From assembly GCA_007121535.1 (NCBI GenBank), contig SKKK01000173.1, positions 1-41,537 on the forward strand: a DNA stretch of 41,537 nt. The letters are read 5' to 3'. The notes beneath the pieces were generated by a model, which ran no database searches, had not been told where the DNA came from, and was given only the letters and a program-made list of their open reading frames with translations. The number at the start of each line of letters is the position of its first letter. Position 1 is the stretch's first letter. Shown here piece after piece: positions 29,604 through 40,801 of the stretch. A program made the position numbers and the translations under genes. The stretch is from Planctomycetaceae bacterium (GTDB lineage: Bacteria; Planctomycetota; Planctomycetia; Pirellulales; Pirellulaceae).

Positions 29604-31475
29604 ATGATTCCAAAACCAGCGTTTCCCCATTCCGGGATCATTCGACGATTCGGCTTGAGTCTGTTTCTGTGCCTGGTTGTCAGCGGAACCACCGCCGTGG
29701 CCGAGGAAGTCGCGTCGGCAATGGCTCGCGTCGCCGACGACATCCGTTACCTAGCCTCGGAGGAGTTGGAAGGTCGAGGCCCCGGTACGCAGGGCAGGCA
29801 GTTGGCGGCGGAGTACATTCGCGACGAGTTTCAGCAGATCGGTTTGAAGAGCGGTGTCGAGGACGGCTCGTATTTTCAGCCGTTCGAGATGCCTCTGGAC
29901 ACCGAGGTCATCGAAGACCAGACGCGGCTGGTCCTGCATTCGCCCGACCAGCAGGCTTTTCCCTTGGAAATGGGCAAGGACTTTCAACCTTTGGCCGCCG
30001 GAGGCGGCGGCCAGGCCAGTGCTGCGATCGTTTTCGCCGGGTACGGGATCTCGGCACCGGACCTGCAGTACGACGACTATGCGGATATCGACGTGGAGGG
30101 AAAGATCGTCTTGGTCATCCGTCGCGAACCCCAGCAGGATGATGAAGATAGCGTCTTCGATGGCAAGCGAACGACAACGCATTCGTTGATCCGCACCAAG
30201 CTGAATGTCGCAAAAGAGCAGAAGGCGGCGGGGGTGTTGTTCGTCAACGATCCTTTCAGCGTCAAGCAGGACGGGAAGGACCAGTTGACCAATCCCGCGG
30301 GTTTCGGGACGCGTAACGCCGAGATCCCGTTCGCCCACGTCTCGCAGGCATGGGTGAATCAGATCCTCCAGCAGACGCCGATCCGGGCGGCTGATGGGCG
30401 TTCTTTCTCGGATCTGTCGGAGGTCGAAGCGGAAATCGATCGGACCGGAAAACCGATTTCGCAATCGCTCGAGGGCTGGTCAGCCGACATGCAAGCGGCC
30501 TTTGAAGTTCGGCCGGTACCCTTGGCCAACGTGATCGGAGTGCTCGAGGGGTCGGGGCCGTTGGCAGACGAGACCATCGTGCTGGGCGCTCACTACGACC
30601 ATCTGGGGTTTGGTGGATACGGCTCGCGTCGGCCCAACGAACGAGCCGTGCATTACGGCGCCGACGACAACGCCTCCGGTACGGCAGCGATCATCGAACT
30701 GGCTCGACGCTTCGCAGCAATGCCAGTACCGCCAGCACGCCGCTTGGTGTTCATCGCGTTCGACGGCGAAGAGCGAGGTCTACTGGGCAGCCGCCATTAC
30801 GTGGATAACCCAACTTTTCCTCTCGCAGATACCATCGCCATGCTGAACTATGATATGGTCGGCCGGATGAGCGATGGGGTGCTGACGGCGATGGGCAGCG
30901 GATCGGCCGCCGAATTCGCGAGATTGCTGGATCAAGCGGCTGACTCCAGCGGGGTAAACGTGCGGCAATCGACTCGCATGACCCGGAACAGCGACCATTT
31001 CCCCTTCTTCCAGCAGAACATTCCCACCTTGCACTTTTTTACCGGCCTCCATGATGATTACCACACGCCCGAGGATACGTTCGACAGGATCAACATGGAC
31101 GGAGTGATGCAGACCATCGACGTTTCGGAGCGGCTGTTGACTGCGATTCTGGAGATGCCACAGCGACTCAGTTTCGTCGAGACGCAGCCGAAGCCTCGTT
31201 CGAAACGCGGCGTCGCCTACTTGGGCATCACGCCGGATTACTCGGGCGGAACCGAGGGGTTGCGAGTGGTTTCGGTCGCTGACGATTCGCCAGCCAAAAG
31301 GGGAGGGTTGGAGGCCGGAGATATTATTACGCAATTTGGCGGAAATCCGATCGAGGACATCACTGCCCTGACCGCCGGATTGCGTGAACACCGGTCGGGC
31401 GATACTGTCGAGATCACTGTACACCGAGACGGACAGACGGTATCATGTTCCGTCACACTCGGCGATGCCCCTTGA
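29604..31475 (+). CDS. Secreted M28-family metallopeptidase with PDZ domain
   Basis: This 623-residue protein starts after AGAGGAAAG with a signal peptide (FGLSLFLCLVVSGTTAVAEE). A PA-type insert (about 110-275, IVFAGYGISAPDLQYDDYAD) precedes the zinc aminopeptidase core. Ligand motifs are present: GAHYDHLGFGG, YGADDNASGTAAIIELARRF, FIAFDGEERGLLGSRHYV, LNYDMVGRMSDG and TGLHDDYHTPEDTFDRIN. A C-terminal PDZ domain (about 535-620, GVAYLGITPDYSGGTEGLRV, DSPAKRGGLEAGDIITQFGG) follows. It would remove N-terminal residues from peptides in the periplasm using two zinc ions. It follows the ZnuA-like gene by 75 nt. Confidence 0.93.
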   Translation: MIPKPAFPHSGIIRRFGLSLFLCLVVSGTTAVAEEVASAMARVADDIRYLASEELEGRGPGTQGRQLAAEYIRDEFQQIGLKSGVEDGSYFQPFEMPLDTEVIEDQTRLVLHSPDQQAFPLEMGKDFQPLAAGGGGQASAAIVFAGYGISAPDLQYDDYADIDVEGKIVLVIRREPQQDDEDSVFDGKRTTTHSLIRTKLNVAKEQKAAGVLFVNDPFSVKQDGKDQLTNPAGFGTRNAEIPFAHVSQAWVNQILQQTPIRAADGRSFSDLSEVEAEIDRTGKPISQSLEGWSADMQAAFEVRPVPLANVIGVLEGSGPLADETIVLGAHYDHLGFGGYGSRRPNERAVHYGADDNASGTAAIIELARRFAAMPVPPARRLVFIAFDGEERGLLGSRHYVDNPTFPLADTIAMLNYDMVGRMSDGVLTAMGSGSAAEFARLLDQAADSSGVNVRQSTRMTRNSDHFPFFQQNIPTLHFFTGLHDDYHTPEDTFDRINMDGVMQTIDVSERLLTAILEMPQRLSFVETQPKPRSKRGVAYLGITPDYSGGTEGLRVVSVADDSPAKRGGLEAGDIITQFGGNPIEDITALTAGLREHRSGDTVEITVHRDGQTVSCSVTLGDAP

Positions 31476-35486: not shown

Positions 35487-36704
35487 ATGTGGAAAGAACT
35501 TGTGCTTTCGATGTGGCAGGTCCTGGGACATCTCGCTCCTTGGATTCTGCTCGGCACGTTGATTGCGGGTTTGATGCATTTGCTGCTGCCTCGCGACTTG
35601 ATTCGCCGCAGTTTTCACGGTGTGGGCGGAGTGTTCAAGGCCGTGGGGTTGGGTGTGCCGCTGCCTTTGTGTTCTTGTGGAGTGATTCCTGCCGGGATCG
35701 GGTTGAAGCAAGACGGGGCCAGCAACGGTGCGGCGGTCGGCTTTCTGATCAGCACTCCGCAAACGAGCGTCAGTTCGATTCTGGTCAGCGCATCGTTCCT
35801 GGGGTGGCCGTTCGCCCTGTTCAAAGTCTTCAGTGCCGCGGTCACCGGCATCTTCGGCGGTTTGACGGTGGATCGGTTTTGCGAAGACGATTCCGAGCAG
35901 ACGGAAGCGGGCACGAGTACCGTGGAAACCGCGGCGACCGAGCGTCGAGGCTGGCGCGAAGGGGTAGCTCATGGCTTGGACATTATCCGCTCGATCTGGC
36001 ACTGGTTGCTGATCGGGGTCATCGTCTCGGCAGCGATCGAGGTCATGGTGCCCGAGGCAGTATTCGTTCGGTTGAACGAGTGGGGCAGTTTTTCGTCAGC
36101 GTTGGCCGCGTTGGCGATCTCGCTGCCGATGTATGTCTGTGCCACGACTTCGGTGCCGGTGGCGGCGGCCATGGTCGCCGGAGGGCTACCACCCGGAGCG
36201 GCGATGGTGTTCTTGATGGCGGGACCGGCGACCAATGTCGCAGCGATCGGTGCGATCTACCGCCGTTTCGGCGGGAAGACAATCGCGATCTACTTGGCAA
36301 CGATCATCATCGGCAGCATGCTGTTCGCCGTCACCTTTGATTGGCTGTTGGTCGCGACGCCGATCGCGATGCCTGACTGCCATGAACACGGCATGCCGAT
36401 TTGGGGCACCCTTTCGGCGCTGGTTCTGCTGGCTTTGATCGTCTGTTTCGCCTTCGAGGATCTGCAGCGTCTGTGGCACAAGAAGAGTGCGGGCGAAGGG
36501 GATGCAAGCCCCGAGCTGCGTATCCCCGTGCAGGGCATGAATTGCAACAATTGCGTCATGCGGCTAGAGAAGGCCTTGCAGGCGACGCAGGGGATCGATT
36601 CCGTTTTCGTTACCTTGGAACCGGGCGAGGCGGTCGTTCGCGGCGGCGTCGACCGAAAACAAATTGTGGAAACGATCCAGGCCGCTGGATTTCAGGCGCA
36701 ATAG
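35487..36704 (+). CDS. SO_0444-type metal efflux permease with C-terminal HMA domain
   Basis: ATG 35487 gives 405 residues. The permease part (PF03773-like, about 1-330) has two repeat halves with LGVPLPLCSCGVIPAGIGLK (Cys 62, Cys 64) and SLPMYVCATTSVPVAAAMVA, then GAAMVFLMAGPATNVAA, typical of the Cu/Zn efflux transporter family. The linker carries a CHEHG motif. The C-terminal 60 residues form a heavy-metal-associated domain: RIPVQGMNCNNCVMRLEKAL, with GMNCNNC at 350-356. The HMA domain may deliver copper or zinc to the channel. It lies 49 nt after the ABC-CPBP gene and 3 nt before the activase. Confidence 0.9.
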   Translation: MWKELVLSMWQVLGHLAPWILLGTLIAGLMHLLLPRDLIRRSFHGVGGVFKAVGLGVPLPLCSCGVIPAGIGLKQDGASNGAAVGFLISTPQTSVSSILVSASFLGWPFALFKVFSAAVTGIFGGLTVDRFCEDDSEQTEAGTSTVETAATERRGWREGVAHGLDIIRSIWHWLLIGVIVSAAIEVMVPEAVFVRLNEWGSFSSALAALAISLPMYVCATTSVPVAAAMVAGGLPPGAAMVFLMAGPATNVAAIGAIYRRFGGKTIAIYLATIIIGSMLFAVTFDWLLVATPIAMPDCHEHGMPIWGTLSALVLLALIVCFAFEDLQRLWHKKSAGEGDASPELRIPVQGMNCNNCVMRLEKALQATQGIDSVFVTLEPGEAVVRGGVDRKQIVETIQAAGFQAQ

Positions 36705-36707
36705 AGA

Positions 36708-37649
36708 ATGCTGACCGGCCGCATCTTTCACATTCAGCGTTATTCGATTCACGACGGTCCCGGAATCCGCACAACCGTGTTCCTGAAGGGCTGCCCGCTG
36801 CATTGCCGGTGGTGCCATAATCCGGAGAGCGTCAGGATCGAACCCGAACTGATGATCCGCGACCAGCGATGCACGGTTTGCGGCGTTTGCTGGCACGCAT
36901 GTCCGGTAGCGGCCGAGCCCGGCGAAGTATCTGGCCAAGTTTCTGGCCAACACGTAGCGAACTTCGACAGACCGTGGTTCGACAAGGGACTTTGCTCGTG
37001 TTGCGGTCGATGCGTCGAGGCCTGCCCGTCGGGCGCCCGCGAAGTGATGGGCTGCTTGATGACGGTGGACCAGACGGTGGCCGAAATACGTAAGGACCGC
37101 ATCTTTTTCGAGGATTCTGCGGGGGGCGTAACGATCTCGGGAGGCGAGCCGTTGCTGCAAGTGCCGTTCGTGGCAGCATTGCTCACCGCATGTCGCTCGA
37201 TCGGTATATCGACGGCCGTGGATACCAGCGGCTACGGCGATCGAGACGGTTTGCTGGCCCTCGCTCAGTGTACCGACCTGTTCCTTTTCGACGTAAAACA
37301 TCTGGACGACACCCAGCACCGACGGCATACGGGCGTTTCCAATAGGATCATTTTGGGAAATCTTCGCGAGTTGGCCAAGCTGGACGTTCCGATATGGATT
37401 CGCATTCCCCTGGTCGCCGGCTTCAACGACTCGGATCTGAATTTGGAATGCACGGCTCGGTTGGCCGCTTCGCTGCCTACGGTGACTCGTGTGAATTTGC
37501 TGCCATGTCATCAACTGGCAGTGCATAAACACAATTCGCTCGGTAGACTGACGGACGCTTGGTCTGCCCGCGCTCCGGCTGCCGAAGTGCTGGATCGGGC
37601 TGTCAGCATTTTTCGATCTTTTGGACTGAACGTACAAATCGGTGGTTGA
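36708..37649 (+). CDS. hypE: Glycyl radical enzyme activase (radical SAM)
   Basis: This 313-residue radical SAM enzyme binds its catalytic [4Fe-4S] cluster with CxxxCxxC (Cys 29, 33, 36 in LKGCPLHCRWCHNPES). It carries an inserted two-cluster ferredoxin domain (Cys 55, 58, 61, 65 and Cys 96, 98/99, 102, 106). GGVTISGGEPLLQ (139-151) is the SAM-binding GGEP motif. HIQRYSIHDGPGIRTTVFLK is the standard activase start. It abstracts hydrogen from a glycine of its partner, surely the adjacent downstream gene, whose ATG lies 4 nt after its stop. The symbol follows from the HypD-like partner and is less sure than the family. Confidence 0.93.
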   Translation: MLTGRIFHIQRYSIHDGPGIRTTVFLKGCPLHCRWCHNPESVRIEPELMIRDQRCTVCGVCWHACPVAAEPGEVSGQVSGQHVANFDRPWFDKGLCSCCGRCVEACPSGAREVMGCLMTVDQTVAEIRKDRIFFEDSAGGVTISGGEPLLQVPFVAALLTACRSIGISTAVDTSGYGDRDGLLALAQCTDLFLFDVKHLDDTQHRRHTGVSNRIILGNLRELAKLDVPIWIRIPLVAGFNDSDLNLECTARLAASLPTVTRVNLLPCHQLAVHKHNSLGRLTDAWSARAPAAEVLDRAVSIFRSFGLNVQIGG

Positions 37650-37653
37650 TGCC

Positions 37654-40020
37654 ATGAACGAACGAACCCGCCGCTTGCGCCAGGCCAGCCTGGATGCCAC
37701 GCCAAGCATTTCCGAGCAGCGAGCCTGTCTGTTAACCGATTTCTACCGCGAACACGAGGGTCGATATTCGACGCCCGTCATGCGGGCTCGGGCGTTCGCC
37801 CATTTGTGCGAGCACAAGACGATCTATCTGGGCGACGACGAATGGATCGTGGGCGAGCGAGGTCCGCAGCCAAAGGTGGTGCCCACGTATCCCGAACTGA
37901 CCTGCCATAGCCTGGAAGACCTTCAAATCCTGGACTCTCGCCCCAAAACCCGGTATGCGGTCCCGAAGGCATGCCTGCAAGCCTATCGCGAGCAGATCGT
38001 TCCGTACTGGCGCGGTCGAGCCATGCGAGACAAGATCTTCGCTGCGATGTCCACCGAATGGTTGGAAGCCTACGAAGCCGGGATCTTTACGGAGTTCATG
38101 GAGCAGCGATCGCCGGGACACACGGTATTGGATGACAAGATCTACCATGAAGGGATGGAGCAGCGCAAGCAACGCATCGCCCGTGCCATCGATGCGTTGG
38201 ACGAAACGACGGATCCTGTTGCCTACGATAAACGCGAACAGCTCAAGGCCATGGCCCTGGTGTGTGACGCGGTGATCCGTTTTGCCCACCGACACGCCGA
38301 ATTGGCCGAAGCAAAGGCCGCCGAGTGCCAGGATCCGGTACGGCGTATCGAGCTGGAGAAGATCGCGCGAGCCTGTCGTCACGTACCGGCCCAGCCGCCT
38401 CGCGACTTTCACGAAGCGTTACAAGCCTATTGGTTCTGTCACTTGGCGGTCATCACCGAACTGAACGGTTGGGACTCGTTCAGCCCCGGACACCTGGACC
38501 AACATCTTTGGCCCTTCTATCAGCAGGGCTTGGCCGATGGTTCGTTGACGAAGGAACACGCGCGCGAGTTGCTCGAGTGCTTCTTCATCAAGTTCAATAA
38601 CCATCCCGCGCCGCCGAAGGTCGGCGTCACGGCTGCCGAAAGCGGAACTTACACCGATTTCGCCAATATCAATCTGGGCGGTTTGCTGTCGGATGGCTCG
38701 GATGGTTCCAATGAATTGACGCATTTGTTGCTGGAGATCATCCAAGAAATGCATTTGCTGCAACCCAGCAGCAACCTGCAGTTATCCCGCAAGACACCGG
38801 ACATCGTTTTGAAGCATGCCTTGCGAGTCATCCGGCAGGGATACGGATTTCCCTCGATCTTCAACGCCGATGCCGTGGTCCAACAGCAGTTGCGGCAGGG
38901 AAAAACGTTGGAGGACGCTCGGGCCGGCGGATGCAGCGGCTGCGTCGAAACGGGAGCGTTCGGCAAGGAAGCGTACATTCTGACCGGTTACTTCAATCTG
39001 CCGAAGATCCTGGAATTGGCCTTGCACCGCGGAATTGATCCCCGCTCGGGCAAACAACTGGGATCTCGCACTGCGGCGATCGAGGATTTCACGGACAGCA
39101 ACCGATTGTTCGCCGCCTTTGGCCAGCAGTTGCGGCACTTTATTGAGATCAAAGTCCGTGGTAATCAGATCATCGAGCGGATGTACGCCACGGCGATGCC
39201 AGCCCCATTCTTGTCCGTGATCACCGACGATTGCATTACCAAAGGCCTGGATTACCATGCGGGAGGCGCCCGGTACAATCACACGTTCATCCAGTTCGTC
39301 GGGATCGGGACGCTGACGGACAGTCTGTCGGCCATCGATAGGCTGGTCTTCCAGGATCACGTGATCGATCTTCCCAGCCTCGTCGCCGTCTTGGACAATG
39401 ATTGGGCTGGCCAAGATAGCCTGTGGGCTCGCTGCCGTCATCGCACAGCCAAATACGGCAATGACGATCCGCTGGCGGACCGCTGGCTGCAACGAGCCTT
39501 CCAATTGATCTTCCAGGAAGTGGATGGCCGTCCGAACACCAAGGGTGGATGCTATCAGATCGAGATGTTACCCACGACCTGCCACGTCTACTTCGGCTCC
39601 GTCACCGGTGCAACTGCGGATGGCCGCTCGTCAGCAGCCCCGTTGTCCGAAGGGATCTCCCCGGTTCAAGGCGCCGACCGGAACGGTCCGACCGCGGTCA
39701 TTCGATCGGCGGCGAAGATGGATCATTTGAAGACCGGGGGAACCTTGTTGAACATGAAGTTCGCGCCCAGCCTGTTGGCCGACGACCATGGCATCGACAT
39801 GCTGGCTCATCTGGTTCGCAGCTATTTCAAAATGGACGGGCACCATCTGCAATTCAACGTCGTCACTGCCGATGCACTCCGGCAAGCCCAGACCGATCCG
39901 GCCGGTCACCGCGATCTGATCGTACGTGTCGCCGGATACAGCGATTACTTCTGCGACCTTTCCCGCGAGCTACAGGAAGAGATCATCACCCGCACCCAGC
40001 ACGATCACTTTTCGCCATAG
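37654..40020 (+). CDS. hypD: Glycyl radical enzyme, probably trans-4-hydroxy-L-proline dehydratase
   Basis: HypD removes water from trans-4-hydroxyproline to give pyrroline-5-carboxylate, anaerobically. ATG 37654 gives 788 residues, the usual length. The catalytic cysteine lies in GGCSGCVETGAFGKEAYILT (Cys 430), and the glycyl radical site is RVAGYSDYFCDLS (Gly 761). The CVETGxFGKEAYxLTGYxNxPKILEL block, LLPTTCH-like LPTTCHVYFG, SAAPLSEGISPVQGAD and NGPTAVIRSAAKMDHLKTGG match what I recall of C. difficile HypD across the whole length. The N-terminal YEAGIFTEFMEQRSPGHTV segment matches as well. Other glycyl radical enzymes (pyruvate formate lyase, choline or glycerol dehydratases) differ around the Cys-Val-Glu motif. 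A close paralogue with another substrate remains possible. GTG 37642 is an alternative start. No pyrroline carboxylate reductase is adjacent. Confidence 0.8.
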   Translation: MNERTRRLRQASLDATPSISEQRACLLTDFYREHEGRYSTPVMRARAFAHLCEHKTIYLGDDEWIVGERGPQPKVVPTYPELTCHSLEDLQILDSRPKTRYAVPKACLQAYREQIVPYWRGRAMRDKIFAAMSTEWLEAYEAGIFTEFMEQRSPGHTVLDDKIYHEGMEQRKQRIARAIDALDETTDPVAYDKREQLKAMALVCDAVIRFAHRHAELAEAKAAECQDPVRRIELEKIARACRHVPAQPPRDFHEALQAYWFCHLAVITELNGWDSFSPGHLDQHLWPFYQQGLADGSLTKEHARELLECFFIKFNNHPAPPKVGVTAAESGTYTDFANINLGGLLSDGSDGSNELTHLLLEIIQEMHLLQPSSNLQLSRKTPDIVLKHALRVIRQGYGFPSIFNADAVVQQQLRQGKTLEDARAGGCSGCVETGAFGKEAYILTGYFNLPKILELALHRGIDPRSGKQLGSRTAAIEDFTDSNRLFAAFGQQLRHFIEIKVRGNQIIERMYATAMPAPFLSVITDDCITKGLDYHAGGARYNHTFIQFVGIGTLTDSLSAIDRLVFQDHVIDLPSLVAVLDNDWAGQDSLWARCRHRTAKYGNDDPLADRWLQRAFQLIFQEVDGRPNTKGGCYQIEMLPTTCHVYFGSVTGATADGRSSAAPLSEGISPVQGADRNGPTAVIRSAAKMDHLKTGGTLLNMKFAPSLLADDHGIDMLAHLVRSYFKMDGHHLQFNVVTADALRQAQTDPAGHRDLIVRVAGYSDYFCDLSRELQEEIITRTQHDHFSP

Positions 40021-40200
40021 TCGACCAGCAATTTCCCGCTGATCAACTGCAGGAACTCGGCATTGCTCTTGAAGCGTCCCAGTTGTTTGGTCAACTGTTG
40101 CATCGCGTCCACCGGATGCATGGTGGTCAGCGTTCGTCGCAGCATCGTCACCGCGTGCAGCGTGTCGGCGTCGTGCAGCAGTTCTTCGCGTCGAGTTGGG
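40005..40200 (-). pseudogene. rho: Transcription terminator Rho, C-terminal fragment
   Basis: The minus-strand frame reads RREELLHDADTLHAVTMLRR, TLTTMHPVDAMQQLTKQLGR and FKSNAEFLQLISGKLLVDYG, then EK and a stop at 40007-40005. This is the very end of Rho (RREELL....L......LRR.L..M.P.(D/E)AM..L...L...K(T/S)NAEFL). Only ~64 residues of a >400-residue helicase remain. The break coincides with the start of the IS66-type fragment. It overlaps the end of the glycyl radical enzyme gene by 16 nt, tail to tail. Confidence 0.85.
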
Positions 40201-40219
40201 GCGCCAGGAGGGCCCGCGC

Positions 40220-40801
40220 ATGAGTTCGGCCAGCACGATCACGGAACTGGATCTGGCGGATGTCGAACGCGCCGTGACGCTGGTCGAGCAGCAACTGGGC
40301 GAGGATATCGCTCGCCCACTTCGCCTGCTGCTGGTGTGGAGCAGTACGGTCCTGACCTTGCTGCGGGAGAAGAATCTGAGCATCCGTTGGTTGGGGCGGA
40401 TGCTGTTCGGACCTAGCACCGAGCGAACCGATGATATCGTTGCCGCACAAGACACGAACGAGTCGGCTGCTAACAAACAGTCCAAGGAGAAGCCGTCGAA
40501 GCCCCGCACGTCATTTGGGAACGGCAGTAAGCAACCTCGACGACGTTCGAAAGGACACGGGCGGACTCCGTCGCCCTATCCCAAATCCGACGCCCGGAAA
40601 TTCAAGATTTTGCAGCGTTGCCGAAACGACACGGGAAAGCCCATCCAAGCAATTCGGGCCGTTTGCGACGTCCTCAGACAGAGTTCGAAAGAAACGCTTG
40701 CCAAGGGCAGAACGCACGGGATACAATGCGGGGAAGCCAACAGATTGGGTTTATTGAAAATGAAATCCTCAATACCTGGCGTCATCTGCTGGCCTCCGTG
40801 A
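40220..40801 (+). mobile_element. IS66-family transposase, N-terminal fragment
   Basis: ATG 40220 with AGGAGGG upstream encodes MSSASTITELDLADVERAVT, a helical segment, REKNLSIRWLGRMLFGPSTE, then RRRSKGHGRTPSPYPKS. The (R)EKN.SI..L.R.LFG..TE(K/R) and KGHGR motifs are typical of the N-terminal region of IS66 transposases. After about residue 115 (near 40565) the homology stops and the frame runs on without resemblance to 40801. The catalytic domain and the companion tnpA/tnpB genes are missing. It lies head to head with the rho fragment; the insertion may have broken rho. Confidence 0.7.

Follow-up and report, generated by a model that had tools for sequence, protein, structure and literature searches.

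Does an uncultured planctomycete encode a genuine trans-4-hydroxy-L-proline dehydratase (HypD), a glycyl radical enzyme that the literature examined treats mainly in gut bacteria, and what might such a cell do with it? The question is raised by two genes in a 41,537-nucleotide (nt) stretch of DNA (the window), which comes from a genome bin of 706 contigs (G000; 9.32 Mb, 95.3% complete, 3.13% estimated contamination), one of four genomes of its genus (G000, G001, G002, and G003). A sequence-only reading had proposed a HypD-like glycyl radical enzyme and its activase here. Both genes lie where it put them, with the motifs GCVETGAF and RVAGYS as it described, and the identification is borne out by the family cut-off, the fold, 14 of 14 checked residues, and a tree branch with a support of 99. 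We consider it highly probable that the pair, which includes the only HypD match in G000, encodes a HypD glycyl radical dehydratase and its own activase; their substrate and radical chemistry we infer from the C. difficile enzyme. The features concerned are as follows.

37642..40020, plus strand: predicted HypD, trans-4-hydroxy-L-proline dehydratase, a glycyl radical enzyme of 792 amino acids (aa) counted from GTG (NF043068, 6vxc, PF02901 and PF01228, Foldseek)
38941..38949, plus strand: Cys434-Val435-Glu436, predicted thiyl-radical Cys and catalytic Glu of the CXE motif (codons checked; roles from PMC7077986, in part)
39934..39936, plus strand: Gly765 of RVAGYS, predicted glycyl radical site (codon checked; PF01228)
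36708..37649, plus strand: radical S-adenosylmethionine (SAM) glycyl-radical activase of 313 aa, by position the putative cognate HypD activase (TIGR02494, NF043069 score, domains, upstream position)

The NCBIfam model for HypD (NF043068) scored the window protein at 1180.8 bits, which passes the curated cut-off of 1100 by 81 bits. The second-best family model, for a broad subfamily, reached 602 bits, under its own cut-off and 579 bits lower; judged by these scores, the HypD family match is far beyond chance. Domains PF02901 and PF01228 are both present, as are the blocks SGCVETGAF (with Cys434 and Glu436) and VRVAGYSD (with Gly765). By sequence, the best solved structure was C. difficile HypD (6vxc; 951.7 bits), from a host of another phylum. 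The alignment is ungapped over residues 6-787, and its residue numbers therefore transfer to the window enzyme. All 14 residues checked (F152, R156, H160, W277, D278, K326, S334, D339, F340, C434, E436, Y450, T645, and G765) are identical in the two enzymes, so that the window protein resembles C. difficile HypD (6vxc/6vxe) in full-length alignment, checked residues, and fold alike.

Asp278, Asp339, His160, Ser334, Phe340, Tyr450, and Thr645 are thus all retained. Substituting His160, Asp278, Asp339, Glu436, Ser334, or Phe340 abolished the activity of the C. difficile enzyme, and Asp278 and Asp339 are described as conserved in HypD and not in other eliminases (both from the accessible part of PMC7077986). 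The same 14 letters occur in 86 of 93 aligned rows (some genomes were reached twice); three partial rows agree wherever they have letters, and the other four rows are different glycyl radical enzymes, which differ at the signature positions.

An AlphaFold2 model built from 34 window and locus sequences had a mean predicted local distance difference test (pLDDT) score of 85.3 and a predicted template modeling (pTM) score of 0.88. Its best solved Foldseek match was again 6vxc (template modeling [TM] score 0.96, root mean square deviation 2.2, 51% identity, E value 1.2e-75), with glycerol dehydratase at 1.1e-55.

The activase contains radical SAM and ferredoxin-like domains and passes TIGR02494, a model for glycyl-radical enzyme activating proteins, with 336.1 bits against a cut-off of 174.35. 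The HypD frame opens at a GTG within the activase gene. ATG 37654, 5 bases past the activase stop, appears to be the likelier start because aligned homologues begin MNER; with either start, the spacing of the two genes would permit translational coupling. Of the 98 HypD loci, 73 have an activase frame immediately upstream in the same orientation, and the remaining 25 include loci with contig ends or short flanks. Tree distances of activases and HypDs correlate (r = 0.687 over 72 loci, with 0 of 500 permutations as high), a correlation that shared host kinship alone can explain in part.

In the mechanism that we propose, the activase, with SAM and iron-sulfur clusters, would place a radical on Gly765 when oxygen is absent. 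The radical would pass from Gly765 to Cys434, which would abstract a hydrogen from C5 of trans-4-hydroxy-L-proline; loss of water would give (S)-Δ1-pyrroline-5-carboxylate ([S]-P5C), and ProC would then reduce this compound to proline.

Gene content leads us to lean toward this route, by way of P5C to proline, as the main fate of hydroxyproline. ProC is over its cut-off in the window genome (281.3 versus 196.75 bits). Proline dehydrogenase was not found in G000, G001, or G003 (the last 63% complete) and is present in 51 of the 60 related genomes compared, own genome included, mostly in frames of >1,000 aa that, from their length, are presumably fused PutA. For P5C dehydrogenase, TIGR01237 was the sole model searched, and none of the five aldehyde dehydrogenases that match it in the window genome passes (best, 308.1 versus 659.65 bits). 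Because proline dehydrogenase was not found and no match exceeded the TIGR01237 cut-off, P5C would most likely be reduced by ProC. D-proline reductase PrdA gave no match in four genomes, and the controls were equally silent, so this search was uninformative.

Among the seven HypD genomes, proline dehydrogenase absence is confined to the sub-lineage of G000, G001, and G003; G002, G010, G026 (78% complete), and G042 have both HypD and proline dehydrogenase. A tie between this absence and HypD was considered and rejected: the gene is missing from three of the seven genomes with HypD and from six of the other 53, a difference that is not significant in a Fisher test that counts related genomes as independent (p = 0.06).

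Several points weigh against the reading set out so far. It is built on sequence, residues, fold, gene order, and gene presence or absence. The active-site loops of the model are of low confidence (several pocket loops have a pLDDT of <50), so the AlphaFold2 and Foldseek results support the fold only and not the pocket geometry. The activase scores under the cut-off of the HypD-activase equivalog model NF043069 (330.9 versus 425 bits). That model looks narrow, because nine of ten activases adjoining other HypDs also miss the cut-off (312-374 bits; N termini set by alignment). Only the activase of Clostridium locus L085 passes (432.6 bits); it adjoins its HypD, as in the window. ProC is unlinked, on contig C490, unlike the clostridial Stickland-type arrangement, in which the P5C reductase gene adjoins hypD (described for Clostridiales in PMC7077986, in part). 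The anaerobic ribonucleotide reductase NrdD was not found in the window genome, with positive controls; strictly anaerobic growth is unsupported for that reason and seems improbable for this organism. Finally, TIGR01237 is narrow (3 of 14 control genomes pass) and the genome is 95.3% complete, which leaves room for oxidation of P5C to glutamate.

In this rival reading, which we think less likely, HypD would be real, and P5C would go to glutamate, and so to central carbon and nitrogen metabolism, instead of proline. P5C is in equilibrium with glutamate semialdehyde, the window genome has the five aldehyde dehydrogenases mentioned above, and in same-genus G002 a frame of 1,066 aa, as long as PutA, encodes a proline dehydrogenase. 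Set against this, none of the five passes the TIGR01237 model, narrow as it is; the best of them scores higher as a succinate-semialdehyde dehydrogenase (547.7 bits, also under the cut-off), and three of the four genomes of the genus gave no proline dehydrogenase.

It is very improbable that the window enzyme belongs with the other glycyl radical enzymes of the proline type, among them HplG, which cleaves a C-N bond, and the N-methyl-4-hydroxyproline dehydratases. HplG-type enzymes share the fold, and the PDB titles of 7vua (HplG), 8iof, and 8id1 indicate hydroxyproline substrates. These structures score 419.7, 389.1, and 404.1 bits, respectively, against the window protein, compared with 951.7 bits for HypD, and are 28-30% identical to it in structural alignment, compared with 51%; the window enzyme also keeps Asp278 and Asp339, the pair reported as specific to HypD among eliminases (PMC7077986, in part). 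Glycerol dehydratase (479.6 bits), propanediol dehydratase, and CutC share the fold, the CXE and Gly loops, and the radical mechanism with HypD, but they reach about half its bit score or less and lack the HypD-specific Asp residues (according to the accessible part of PMC7077986).

How unusual, then, would a planctomycete HypD be? The sequence-only reading had called it unexpected in this phylum, an expectation that its distribution contradicts. A genome-collection scan with the window protein returned at least 577 relatives, and the best 80 of these, together with loci from genome searches, gave 98 tree rows. Among these rows are 14 phylum labels, including Planctomycetota, Verrucomicrobiota, Acidobacteriota, Thermodesulfobacteriota (Geobacteraceae), Chloroflexota, and Bacillota; the labels follow the submitters' titles, mostly of metagenome bins. 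HypD occurs in four of four genomes of the window's genus and in 7 of the 60 related genomes (own included), six of them over the cut-off and the seventh, G010, with the gene split over two contigs. Fifteen of 392 evenly drawn Planctomycetota, own genome included, match at an E value of ≤1e-200, and 13 of them pass the cut-off. Judged by sequence, the window gene is a genuine-looking HypD of a kind widespread in environmental bacteria, real and not exceptional.

In a quick tree of the 98 rows, the window copy grouped with G001 and L014 (Shimodaira-Hasegawa-like approximate likelihood ratio test [SH-aLRT] support of 99); adding L015, L016, and L042 gave a six-row group with a support of 100. 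These six lie within a set of 25 rows from Planctomycetota and Verrucomicrobiota/Lentisphaerota, which had a support of 94, and of 98 in a second quick tree with an outgroup, so that a planctomycete-Verrucomicrobiota grouping of HypD appears supported. The outgroup tree added four uncharacterized other glycyl radical enzymes, and all 98 HypD rows, including the Clostridium copy L085, fell on one side of a branch with a support of 99; C. difficile HypD and the characterized enzymes were compared by score only. We do not claim a single Planctomycetia clade, since the 12-row set nested within these 25 rows had a support of 80 in the first tree and 39 with the outgroup. L085 was placed apart from the window's group, and other planctomycete copies (Phycisphaerae, Sedimentisphaerales, and unnamed families) were scattered elsewhere in the tree. 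From its placement, hypD appears to be long established in this lineage and not newly imported from clostridia. That the contig is a contaminant and its planctomycete assignment wrong is scarcely credible: the bin does have 706 contigs and some estimated contamination, but HypD recurs throughout the genus, G001 has the same neighbors, five planctomycete copies join that of the window in one group (SH-aLRT 100), and G+C content is 60% both in the window and in stretches of three other bin contigs.

Some of these genomes hold variants and relatives of the enzyme. The HypD of G002 (L015, 7714-7809) has a 32-residue in-frame insertion after residue 571. Within it are two GC-rich, imperfectly palindromic repeats of 23 nt, spaced 36 nt apart; the examined loci from other places yielded no copy. 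G026, G002, and G010 also encode other, distinct glycyl radical enzymes (L010, L011, L012, and L013) with 26-29% identity to that of the window, and in G026 two such genes converge with one activase gene between them.

Two genes or gene groups upstream of the activase concern its neighborhood.

35487..36704, plus strand: SO_0444-like permease with a C-terminal heavy-metal (HMA) domain (NF033936 at 276.8 bits, below the cut-off of 300; PF03773 and PF00403)
29604-31475: M28 peptidase, upstream of the activase with four genes between

The permease frame opens at GTG 35385, with a likely start at ATG 35487, and ends 3 bp ahead of the activase. Moving outward from the activase, the order is the SO_0444-like permease, an ATP-binding cassette (ABC) permease/CPBP protein, and an ABC ATPase. 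The same upstream genes extend over 7 kb in one same-genus genome, G001, in which the neighbors (ABC ATPase, ABC permease/CPBP, SO_0444-like permease, activase, and HypD) have 75-90% protein identity; the permease arrangement also recurs in G003/L014 as far as the contig reaches. In this sub-lineage, the permease is perhaps co-transcribed with the activase, and an HMA-domain permease stands directly before an iron-sulfur activase. As a general part of HypD systems, the permease was rejected: in a blastp search against 111 records, it lay beside HypD only in the window, G001, and G003/L014, and it was not found near HypD in same-genus G002 or in the other HypD loci (many with short flanks; L111-L141 excluded).

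The M28 peptidase, which the sequence-only reading took as fitting peptide use, does not hold up as a member of the HypD unit. Between it and the activase stand four genes (TIM barrel, ABC ATPase, ABC permease/CPBP, and SO_0444-like permease), and nothing linking it to HypD was found; the G001 contig begins at the ABC ATPase and so stops short of the M28 position. Downstream of hypD, a Rho terminator gene survives as a relic of its final 63 codons (40005-40196, minus strand), which abuts an IS66-like transposase fragment (40196-40798, plus strand; PF13007 at 17.8 bits, below the cut-off of 22.9). At the relic's place, G001 has a full-length rho frame (429 aa) convergent to hypD, and the window genome has rho frames elsewhere, on C47 (429 aa; 474.9 bits, under the model cut-off) and C467 (645 bits).

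A second, candidate route for hydroxyproline lies on contig C120 of the window genome (L102, 2718-6000), where three adjacent minus-strand genes encode a dihydrodipicolinate synthase (DHDPS)-family protein (deaminase-like), a proline-racemase-family protein (epimerase-like), and a flavin adenine dinucleotide (FAD) D-amino-acid-oxidase-like protein. 3na8 and 2azp are members of the hydroxyproline cluster of P. aeruginosa. The epimerase-like protein has both catalytic Cys residues (in MCGHG and DRSPCGTG), and its best match is 4-hydroxyproline epimerase (NF052296 at 371.5 bits, under the cut-off of 450). It also has a Cys six residues ahead of DRSPCGTG, at a site occupied by Phe in proline racemases; a Cys or Tyr there distinguishes 4-hydroxyproline 2-epimerases (PMC4364671, in part), and D-amino-acid oxidase and DHDPS-family neighbors have been described for 4-hydroxyproline breakdown via the epimerase (PMC4113996, in part). 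We regard C120 as a candidate aerobic hydroxyproline operon that co-occurs with HypD in one genome. Among 12 family loci (L111-L122), all three genes recur in L114, and the epimerase and oxidase genes recur in L115, L117, and L120.

A full-length PF05544 member (a match of >190 bits, in a family that also holds proline racemases and trans-3-hydroxyproline dehydratases) occurs in 32 of the 60 genomes, including the window's and G002. Mutual exclusion of HypD and this epimerase family was rejected (2 of 7 HypD genomes versus 30 of 53 others; Fisher p = 0.23, not significant). In two HypD loci, L093 (a Bacillota bin) and L077 (an Acetothermia bin), there is a proline-racemase-family gene 31-32% identical to that on C120, a location that would suit proline fermentation.

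Where would an oxygen-sensitive enzyme of this kind be used? L014 (CSSed162cmB_149) shows protein identities equal to those of G003, a genome of the window's genus. The source of CSSed bins is a soda lake in Siberia, the top sediment of which is described as largely anoxic (PMC6704655, in part). Cultured relatives also carry the enzyme. Aeoliella straminimaris ICT_H6.2 (L017) encodes a HypD that is 74% identical to the window's, with the activase upstream and the same 14-residue signature; the species is listed as "Aerobic, grows under microaerobic conditions" (PMC13315336, in part). G042, which also has HypD, is presumably Aeoliella mucimassa Pan181, listed in the same source as aerobic. Both resemble the window in having HypD with an upstream activase and differ from it in that no SO_0444-like permease was found upstream. 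We infer use of HypD under anoxia, and likewise the source of its hydroxyproline.

We speculate, with little confidence, that in this planctomycete lineage oxygen decides between an anaerobic and an aerobic hydroxyproline route. In anoxia, HypD would then serve both as an electron sink and as a source of proline, converting hydroxyproline from algal or animal debris into proline that is retained, with proline dehydrogenase lost. The proline would go into protein and might also act as a compatible solute where the sediment is saline and alkaline, and the epimerase operon would burn hydroxyproline to 2-oxoglutarate once oxygen returns. If this were true, an anoxic metabolism would lie hidden in the Aeoliella strains reported to be aerobic.

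We found no description of a planctomycete HypD in the literature searched; subscription papers lay outside that search, and an earlier mention is possible. What the analysis adds is the environmental spread of HypD, the presence of a candidate aerobic route in the same genome, the lack of a detected proline dehydrogenase, and the cultured relatives. Because HypD sequences occur in numerous lineages from the environment, some of them planctomycetes listed as aerobic, proteins rich in hydroxyproline may be turned over anaerobically as a general process outside the gut. Whether a bacterium described as aerobic makes use of an oxygen-sensitive glycyl radical enzyme can be tested directly in the cultured Aeoliella strains.

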